A stretch of 11,226 nucleotides of DNA from the NCBI GenBank assembly GCA_003663695.1, contig QMUB01000012.1, positions 1 to 11,226 on the forward strand, given 5' to 3'. Positions within the stretch are counted from its first letter, which is position 1. Each line of letters begins with the position of its first letter. The notes under the pieces were generated by a model. That model was not told the DNA's origin. It did not search any database and was given only the letters and a program-made list of their open reading frames with translations. The position numbers and the translations under genes were made by a program. Source of the DNA: Thermococci archaeon (GTDB taxonomy: Archaea > Methanobacteriota_B > Thermococci > Thermococcales > Thermococcaceae). Shown here piece by piece: positions 5,389 to 8,355 of this stretch.

Positions 5389-6000
5389 ATGGGAGAAGAA
5401 AGCATCATGTTTTTGGCTCCATATACAAAATGGATTTTGCTGGCTGTTGCAGTGCTCTATCTAACCTACATATTCGTGTGGAAAAAGGAGAGCTTTAAGA
5501 GTGCCGGGGTGGTGGCAATATCTGCTGTGATGACCGCATTGGTTGCAGTCATCACGATAGCTATTAGGGTTCCCACACCCGCCACAAGTGGTTACATAAA
5601 CATAGGCGATACAATGGTCATGCTCAGCGGTGTCCTATTTGGACCTCTTGTGGGGGCATTTGCGGGAGGATTTGGTTCCGCTCTTGCGGACGCCCTAGGT
5701 GGATATCCTCACTGGGCTCCGTTCACGCTCATAATAAAAGGGGTTGAAGGATGGATCGTTGGATATCTCGTCTCAAAGAGATTCGATTTCACCGTGGTTT
5801 TGATAGCTACAATCTTGGGTGGATTTTTGATGGTCTCCGGTTACTTCTTTGTGGGGGTTTACTTATACGGTTTCGGAGCGGCATTAACTGAAGTCCCCGG
5901 GAACACATTGCAGGCGGTTAGTGGCATAATTGTGGGGGGAGGTGCGGGATACCTAATAAAAAGGCTGTATCCTCAGATAGAGAGCTTTATAAAAGCATAA
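5389..6000 (+). CDS. ECF transporter S component (substrate-binding membrane subunit)
   Basis: A 203-residue membrane protein. After an N-terminal helix (about residues 13-31) and a basic linker it has the S-component core: a helix at about 38-58, then the signature GYINIGDTMVMLSGVLFGP (68-86), the glycine-rich LVGAFAGGFGSALADALGGY, WAPFTLIIKGVEGWIVGYL (about 109-127) and two more hydrophobic segments. This pattern matches the COG4720/PF07155 group, whose members have been linked to riboflavin or thiamine-precursor (HMP) uptake. The substrate here is unknown. S components capture a vitamin and dock on a shared EcfA/EcfT energising module; none is encoded in the window, so it probably uses a module elsewhere. 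The extra N-terminal helix is unusual for the usual six-helix core. Its stop codon lies 4 nt from that of the convergent DUF1884 gene. Confidence 0.8.
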   Translation: MGEESIMFLAPYTKWILLAVAVLYLTYIFVWKKESFKSAGVVAISAVMTALVAVITIAIRVPTPATSGYINIGDTMVMLSGVLFGPLVGAFAGGFGSALADALGGYPHWAPFTLIIKGVEGWIVGYLVSKRFDFTVVLIATILGGFLMVSGYFFVGVYLYGFGAALTEVPGNTLQAVSGIIVGGGAGYLIKRLYPQIESFIKA

Positions 6001-6004
6001 AAGC

Positions 6005-6292
6005 TTAGACTCTTCCCAGCTCGTCCCATGTCTCCCTTTCCCTATCCTTTAGGAAAGGATCGACAGAAACCCTCCTCGATGCTTTTTTCATGAGTCCTAA
6101 CGCCTGCGAGTCCGCTATAACGGCATCATATCCAAGTTCTTCAACCTCATATATCTTCAGGTTCAAATTTACCAGGAGATCCCCGGCATTCAGCAGAAAC
6201 TCTCCTCCGGCAAGGATTATGTCAGGTTCCAGACCTTCCTTTTTGAGAGCATCTATTTCAGTCAGGATGATATTTTTCAAGTCTTCCTTCAT
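6005..6292 (-). CDS. DUF1884 protein, Family 4 (A-domain) encapsulin-like
   Basis: A 95-residue protein without signal or membrane segments. It consists of an N-terminal helix (about 2-19), a strand at 23-28 (PDIILAGG), a helix, a strand LKIYEVEEL, a strand DAVIADSQ and a final [12 protein letters not shown] strand with an acidic, charged tail ([13 protein letters not shown]). I recognise the DUF1884 (PF08967) family, whose Pyrococcus furiosus member PF0899 has a crystal structure. This family was later proposed to be a minimal HK97-capsid A-domain, the Family 4 encapsulins, found in two-gene operons with an enzyme. The [21 protein letters not shown] segment recalls the GDfxxyxvxDRxgxsV end of phage capsid A-domains. 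It is the second gene after deoC, with a 4-nt ATGA overlap, so expression should be coupled to the aldolase. Whether it assembles a shell or simply binds DeoC is unknown. Confidence 0.8.
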
Positions 6293-6945
6293 TTTTCTAC
6301 CCCCCTCACAATTTCAACGCCTTTTGATGCCCCGATCCTGTTTGCACCGGCTTTTATCATAGCCAGCGCCGTCTCATAGTCCTTTATCCCTCCCGCAGCT
6401 TTAACACCTAGCTTGTCCCCTACGATCCTGCGCATGAGTTTCACATCTTCCACGGCTGCCCCTCCACTTCCAAAGCCAGTGGATGTCTTCACAAAGTCTG
6501 CCCCTGCTTCCATGGCAAGCCTGCACGCTGTTTCCTTCTCCTCATCGCTGAGGTAGCATGTTTCTATGATAACCTTCACAATTGCCCCCCTCTTGTGGGC
6601 TATCTGCACAACTGCTTCTATATCCCTCTTGACGTATTCATAGTCCCTGTCCTTCAGTGCACCGATGTTTATCACCATATCGAGCTCATTCGCGCCATCT
6701 TCTAGGGCTTTCTCGGCTTCAAAAACCTTGACCTCCGTTGGTGTTGCCCCCAGCGGAAATCCTATGACACTCGCCACCTTAACCCTACTCCCTTCGAGCT
6801 CCTTCTTGGCAAGTCTAACCCGATATGGATTAACACAAACCGCATGAAAGCCGTATTCTTTGGCTTCGCTGCACAGCTTGATTATATCCTCCTTGGTTGC
6901 ATATGCTCTGAGATTTGTATGGTCAATATACTTTGCAATATCCAC
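6289..6945 (-). CDS. deoC: Deoxyribose-phosphate aldolase
   Basis: A class I aldolase that splits 2-deoxy-D-ribose 5-phosphate into glyceraldehyde 3-phosphate and acetaldehyde, in nucleoside catabolism. The TIM-barrel shows IDHTNL near the start, the catalytic Asp in [11 protein letters not shown] (residue 89), the Schiff-base Lys in FVKTSTGF (153), the second Lys in [10 protein letters not shown] (182) and a phosphate-binding GASKG near the end. The length of 218 residues is typical of archaeal DeoC, but the C-terminus stops at GVEK with no added tail. The frame is open to GTG 6954 and has GTG codons at 6954, 6951 and 6945. I choose GTG 6945 because AGGTGGT at 6957-6951 is then a Shine-Dalgarno with the spacing used elsewhere in the window, giving [12 protein letters not shown]. 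It is first in an operon with the DUF1884 gene and divergent from eno. Confidence 0.93.

Positions 6946-8355
<1,410 letters not shown>

Follow-up and report, generated by a model that had tools for sequence, protein, structure and literature searches.

Andreas & Giessen 2021 (PMC8346489) list deoxyribose-phosphate aldolase (DeoC) among the enzyme partners of four types of Family 4 encapsulin operon, and name the DeoC A-domain operon as such. According to the same paper, every HK97-fold protein known so far forms pentameric facets and the same is to be expected of A-domain proteins; the structure 2PK8 was crystallised as a dimer, which Andreas & Giessen suggest may be an artefact of the tag. 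A 2024 review (PMC11202242) describes encapsulin Families 3 and 4 as "yet to be experimentally characterized", and among the titles and abstracts found by our literature search, which had most subscription papers outside its reach, no experiment on the DeoC-linked protein is reported. Here we analyze a gene pair of this type, deoC followed by a gene for a small Family 4B protein (hereafter 4B), in a stretch of 11,226 nucleotides from a Thermococci archaeon (contig QMUB01000012.1 of assembly GCA_003663695.1), which we call the window. The pair is a known kind of Thermococcales two-gene operon; as to its function we propose tentatively, and with somewhat less than even confidence, that 4B is an accessory that can be dispensed with, is translated together with DeoC and putatively binds it as a small oligomer, not as a closed shell, and that it has another partner in Pyrococcus.

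The deoC-4B operon and its closest relatives

The locus in the window has the same gene pair, the same gene order, the same small-protein family and the same archaeal order as the DeoC-type Family 4B operon of PMC8346489, from which it differs in nothing essential; what we add is a survey that samples the losses and Pyrococcus more densely. The initial annotation was right in naming DeoC as a reported Family 4 partner, as the published list of operon types includes it, and wrong in taking the locus for a candidate undescribed system, since DeoC A-domain operons are in print and the protein is already named in Pfam as well as in NCBIfam. Its two-gene operon with an ATGA overlap, a 95-codon second gene and no further member is borne out by the coordinates of the open reading frames (ORFs): the enolase gene is divergent and the gene for an ECF-type transporter S component (hereafter the ECF gene) is convergent, and thus the operon in the window consists of deoC and 4B only. 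The deoC frame is open from GTG 6954, but the start given before, GTG 6945, is probably the better one, because AGGTGG (6956–6951) lies immediately upstream. The features are as follows.

6289..6954, minus strand: deoC, deoxyribose-phosphate aldolase; 221 amino acids (aa) from GTG 6954, 218 aa from the likely start GTG 6945
6005..6292, minus strand: Family 4B encapsulin-like A-domain protein, 95 aa (matches to PF08967, encap_f4b and 2PK8)
6289..6292, minus strand: ATGA, overlap of the deoC stop and the 4B start
6056..6292, minus strand: HK97 A-domain-like portion of 4B, residues 1–79 (AlphaFold2 model, VIA-align rows spanning 1–79)
6014..6061, minus strand: C-terminal helix of 4B, residues 78–93, with the conserved Trp89, beyond the capsid-matched portion (blocks of model confidence, conservation)
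6951..6956, minus strand: AGGTGG, probable ribosome-binding site of deoC, judged from the sequence
6976..6983, minus strand: TAAATATA, possible TATA element 31–38 bases 5' of GTG 6945, judged likewise
5389..6000, plus strand: ECF-type transporter S component (PF07155), convergent and outside the operon; four bases separate its end from the 4B stop
7063..8355, plus strand: enolase (PF00113 and PF03952), divergent upstream neighbour, outside the operon

4B resembles a single domain of the capsid fold

4B passes the cut-offs of its curated family models (PF08967: 88.7 bits, cut-off 31.4; encap_f4b: 112.1 bits, cut-off 90) and matches PDB entry 2PK8 in a sequence search (E 4e-7). PF0899, the P. 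furiosus protein of 2PK8, belongs to the hydrogenase-linked Family 4A; the window protein scores 37.0 bits against the encap_f4a model, whose cut-off is also 90, and its encap_f4b match reaches residue 93, whereas the 4A and PF08967 matches stop at residues 77 and 79. Other sequence matches in the PDB were set aside as short or due to chance: 4ozs (E 0.0014), 8biq (E 0.014), 5zq0 and its kin (E about 0.026) and 6nud (E 0.54); only 2PK8 is convincing.

The AlphaFold2 model of 4B has a mean predicted local distance difference test (pLDDT) of 87.4, with block means of 59 and 53 over residues 81–95. In the VIA-align list for this model, which is a re-alignment of Foldseek's own candidates, rows 2–47 are all encapsulins or phage capsid entries and a V/A-ATPase chain stands at rank 48. 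Plain Foldseek is less clear, as 2PK8 is the one match out of 239 with E under 0.001, and ranks 2–4 go to V/A-ATPase stalk chains, above HK97 capsids; of the 196 matches of the Foldseek viral search, none is under E 0.001. The HK97 reading therefore leans on the VIA-align list. Comparison of the 4B profile with archaeal Family 1 encapsulins by hhalign was not significant (probability 2.2, P 0.022, 43 columns; the alignment used 27 of 68 proteins found), so we reject the notion of sequence-level proof of HK97 homology, and the relation rests on the fold. Compared with Family 1 encapsulins (EncA of M. xanthus, the encapsulin of T. maritima) and HK97 capsids, 4B lacks the rest of the capsid fold, and we have no evidence of a shell or a cargo peptide. 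Instead of the full set of N-arm, E-loop, P-domain and A-domain there are 95 residues, the size of an A-domain-only protein (about 100 residues), of which 1–79 match one part of the capsid chains. Family membership, gene overlap and fold match are shown, and of the HK97 fold 4B keeps just the A-domain; the structural match to capsid chains, whose absence would have spoken against the initial annotation, is there, and its identification of a Family 4, HK97 A-domain-like protein stands. That the small ORF is no genuine gene, or that its family assignment is accidental, can practically be dismissed: besides the model scores and the fold match, there are 83 orthologues with near-invariant residues and constraint in Pyrococcus (see below).

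Beyond the capsid-matched portion, Trp89 is kept in 99% of 75 DeoC-linked 4B proteins and in 8/8 Pyrococcus proteins, and the C-terminal helix that bears it, conserved in both the DeoC and the Pyrococcus type, is a candidate for docking. A further alignment covers 107 of 108 homologues, all except P0042, together with the window protein. The same genome encodes a second copy of the family, 4A-like (PF08967 113.6 bits), on contig C61 (L001:1489–1779, plus strand), behind a gene for a MarC membrane protein; no OsmC gene was recognised among the ORFs listed on this 3.3-kb locus, where no profile search for OsmC was made.

The upstream gene encodes DeoC. Its product scores 293.7 bits against NCBIfam TIGR00126 (cut-off 117.3) and 80.3 bits against Pfam PF01791 (cut-off 23.8), and 23 distinct sequences of solved structures match it at E <= 1e-20, every one named aldolase. 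The Asp of DMVINIG and the Lys residues of FVKTST and VKAAGG, which we take to be the catalytic residues, are kept in all 80 aligned DeoC proteins (two fragments at contig ends were left out). No residue or tail sets the 73 DeoC proteins with 4B apart from the seven without it, although other modes of binding are possible. In T. kodakarensis, DeoC (TK2104) was more abundant under stress according to a proteome study (PMC4473059), which has no bearing on 4B.

Linkage of 4B to deoC in Thermococcales

We surveyed 94 Thermococcales genomes, 92 of which (including 74/74 near-complete ones) have a PF08967 match; in a sample of 115 genomes of the phylum, all 92 genomes with such a match belong to Thermococcales. 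By the 4B profile and the fetched loci, 83 of the 94 have an intact 4B gene, i.e. an ORF that matches the profile. This number includes five genomes (G089, G091, G086, G092 and G019) in which a stop is marked inside the profile match and the open frames are still 93–98 aa long; four assemblies that are 73–79% complete (G009, G045, G052 and G081), in which neither state could be read, stand outside both the 83 and the seven genomes with deoC and no intact 4B discussed below.

One mark of Family 4B is an enzyme gene, deoC or gapdh, directly before it. At 75/83 intact-4B loci this gene is deoC, on the strand of 4B, as it is in the window, and the remaining eight loci are those of Pyrococcus; the linkage to deoC in related genomes, whose absence would have refuted the initial annotation, thus holds in all 75 intact-4B genomes outside that genus. 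The longest ORFs of the two genes, which may overstate the overlap, overlap in 74 of the 75 pairs (range -68 to +3 bases), and 34 of these overlaps are exactly 4 bases long; contig ends truncate deoC in two of the 75. Gene order 5' of deoC varies between genomes, and in none of the 75 are deoC and 4B separated. For DeoC-linked 4B, the median ratio of nonsynonymous to synonymous substitution rates (dN/dS) in 1055 pairs is 0.196.

Two variants of the neighbourhood were seen. Ten genomes of genus g3 (L096–L105) have a divergent ECF protein, and nine of them also a called ThiF-family gene 5' of deoC; the cassette may have been replaced there. Many loci of the genus Thermococcus carry, 5' of deoC and on its strand, an ORF of about 100 codons (cluster c7, 35 loci, e.g. 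L044:4527–4853, minus strand); the window lacks it, and it could extend the operon elsewhere.

Losses of 4B

Seven genomes have deoC and no intact 4B (G083, G078, G087, G073, G076, G085 and G093), and hence DeoC has no need of 4B. In G078, G087 and G083 (L124, L125 and L127) the interval from an intact deoC to the ECF gene contains decayed remnants of 4B, that of G087 being short and fainter; no remnant after deoC was recognised in G073, G076, G085 and G093. In G093 (L126) the 3' end of deoC itself shares 4 bases with that of the ECF gene, which looks like a clean excision of 4B. A midpoint-rooted tree built from DeoC and two linked genes, which is no replacement for a species tree, puts the seven cases at about five independent losses.

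The Pyrococcus exception

The reverse situation is found in Pyrococcus, where eight of eight near-complete genomes give no deoC match and all eight keep an intact 4B, which there consequently has no need of DeoC. A deoC fragment in one assembly of the genus (G009; L159 on contig C134), the sole trace of deoC in Pyrococcus, was disregarded: over 2.9 kb its contig shows 99.2% identity to the locus of a genome from another genus (G020), and it is probably contamination. Pyrococcus 4B looks constrained, with dN/dS of 0.037 and 0.132 in the two of 28 pairs whose dS is usable. It is orthologous to 4B of the window and has the same tail-to-tail ECF gene; the difference lies on the other side, where it is on the strand of gapdh and 48–70 bp behind it in 7/8 genomes. 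In the eighth (G011) 1488 bp and an opposite-strand permease-family gene lie between the two. TATA-like motifs can be seen by eye in the gapdh-4B gap, but shuffled versions of that DNA score as well (a fraction of 0.09–0.84 of the shuffles reaches the score). In 20 genomes outside Pyrococcus no Pyrococcus neighbour of 4B adjoins gapdh; two weak matches to one such neighbour (25% and 23% identity; L142 and L144) lie about 2.7–3 kb from it. In our survey the GAPDH type of 4B is known from one genus, in which the junction has a gap and one genome has the two genes apart. Since the same protein survived in Pyrococcus without deoC, it must serve another partner, possibly GAPDH.

What 4B may do

The reading that we prefer, a dispensable accessory of DeoC, would work as follows. 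Through coupled translation, 4B would be made where DeoC is synthesised and at the same rate; as a small homo-oligomer, it could then bind the DeoC oligomer via its A-domain faces, the Trp89 helix or both, and act as a stabilising or clustering subunit without a closed shell; in Pyrococcus the surviving protein would serve another partner, possibly GAPDH. Several observations weigh against this proposal. The ECF gene is convergent and tail-to-tail with 4B in 83/83 loci, including those of Pyrococcus without deoC (the count is by profile from a single-linkage cluster, of which L096–L098 are unmatched by the window protein in phmmer and the others of L096–L105 match weakly), and deoC is therefore not the only gene whose place next to 4B is conserved. 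Mirror-tree partial correlations in 45 genomes that carry all five genes are 0.32 for 4B-DeoC, 0.38 for 4B-ECF and 0.38 for DeoC-ECF (each with permutation p 0.001); as 4B shows no excess over the ECF control, we reject DeoC-specific co-evolution. The candidate docking helix is not clearly amphipathic (z 0.65 over 82 proteins). The ends of 4B and the ECF gene overlap by 4 bases in 63/83 loci, and such overlapping tails may lock the two genes together; an aminotransferase gene beyond the ECF gene is kept in 77/80 non-Pyrococcus loci with enough sequence and in 0/8 of Pyrococcus. What is specific to deoC and 4B is the same-strand, mostly overlapping junction, unbroken in 75 genomes despite the varying gene order upstream.

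That junction is also the chief difficulty for the view that 4B has a function of its own, unrelated to DeoC; the overlap would then reflect a compact genome and a convenient promoter, and another cellular partner would account for the survival of 4B in Pyrococcus after the loss of deoC. The constrained 4B of Pyrococcus, the outcome of the mirror-tree analysis and the seven genomes in which DeoC does without it all agree with such independence; but 75/75 non-Pyrococcus 4B genes follow deoC with the longest ORFs overlapping or at most 3 bases apart, and we regard this explanation as possible but unlikely. Glyceraldehyde 3-phosphate is heat-labile, and 4B might be an accessory of the enzymes that handle it, DeoC in most genera and GAPDH in Pyrococcus, perhaps shielding or channelling the aldehyde. 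Both enzymes whose genes adjoin 4B share this metabolite, going by the reactions given in PMC8346489, and the same paper, citing a proteomics study, reports a stable complex of GAPDH with its A-domain protein from P. furiosus. Pyrococcus, in which deoC is missing, has 4B near gapdh. Yet the gapdh link comes from one genus, the genes are spaced or, in G011, apart, and a chromatin immunoprecipitation sequencing (ChIP-seq) paper (PMC4706686) lists the P. furiosus gapdh (PF1874) as a singleton; the common metabolite is an attractive link but a thin one, and we consider this variant improbable.

The initial annotation had 4B form a compartment or scaffold with the aldolase, perhaps holding acetaldehyde or stabilising the enzyme at high temperature. 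The strong version of this, a closed nanocompartment enclosing DeoC, would accord with the predicted A-domain-like fold and with the pentameric facets expected by Andreas & Giessen; a closed shell is nevertheless unlikely, because the A-domain part alone is present and DeoC is kept without 4B. The dimer of 2PK8, with the reservation of Andreas & Giessen about the tag, and the lack of any cargo-tail signature distinguishing DeoC with 4B from DeoC without it also speak against it, so that a nanocompartment retaining acetaldehyde appears very improbable. An essential compartment is opposed by DeoC without intact 4B in seven genomes as well as by 4B without DeoC in eight.

Implications for Family 4B

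A wider proposal, which we find doubtful, is that 4B is a domesticated capsid A-domain that has become a detachable enzyme adaptor instead of a shell protein: for long a co-translated partner to DeoC, it would have been lost about five times while DeoC remained, and been put to new use in Pyrococcus once deoC had gone. If this were true, the published "GAPDH operon" would be either the remnant of a rearrangement or a genuine switch of partner between two enzymes of glyceraldehyde 3-phosphate. Caution is due with functional assignments based on conserved neighbourhoods, as here a convergent transporter gene that has no evident link is conserved just as well. The genomes that have deoC and no intact 4B, and the Pyrococcus genomes that have 4B and no deoC, are natural experiments on whether the protein is an accessory, a shell or unrelated to the enzyme; these natural losses, together with the Pyrococcus exception, make the question of Family 4B function testable.
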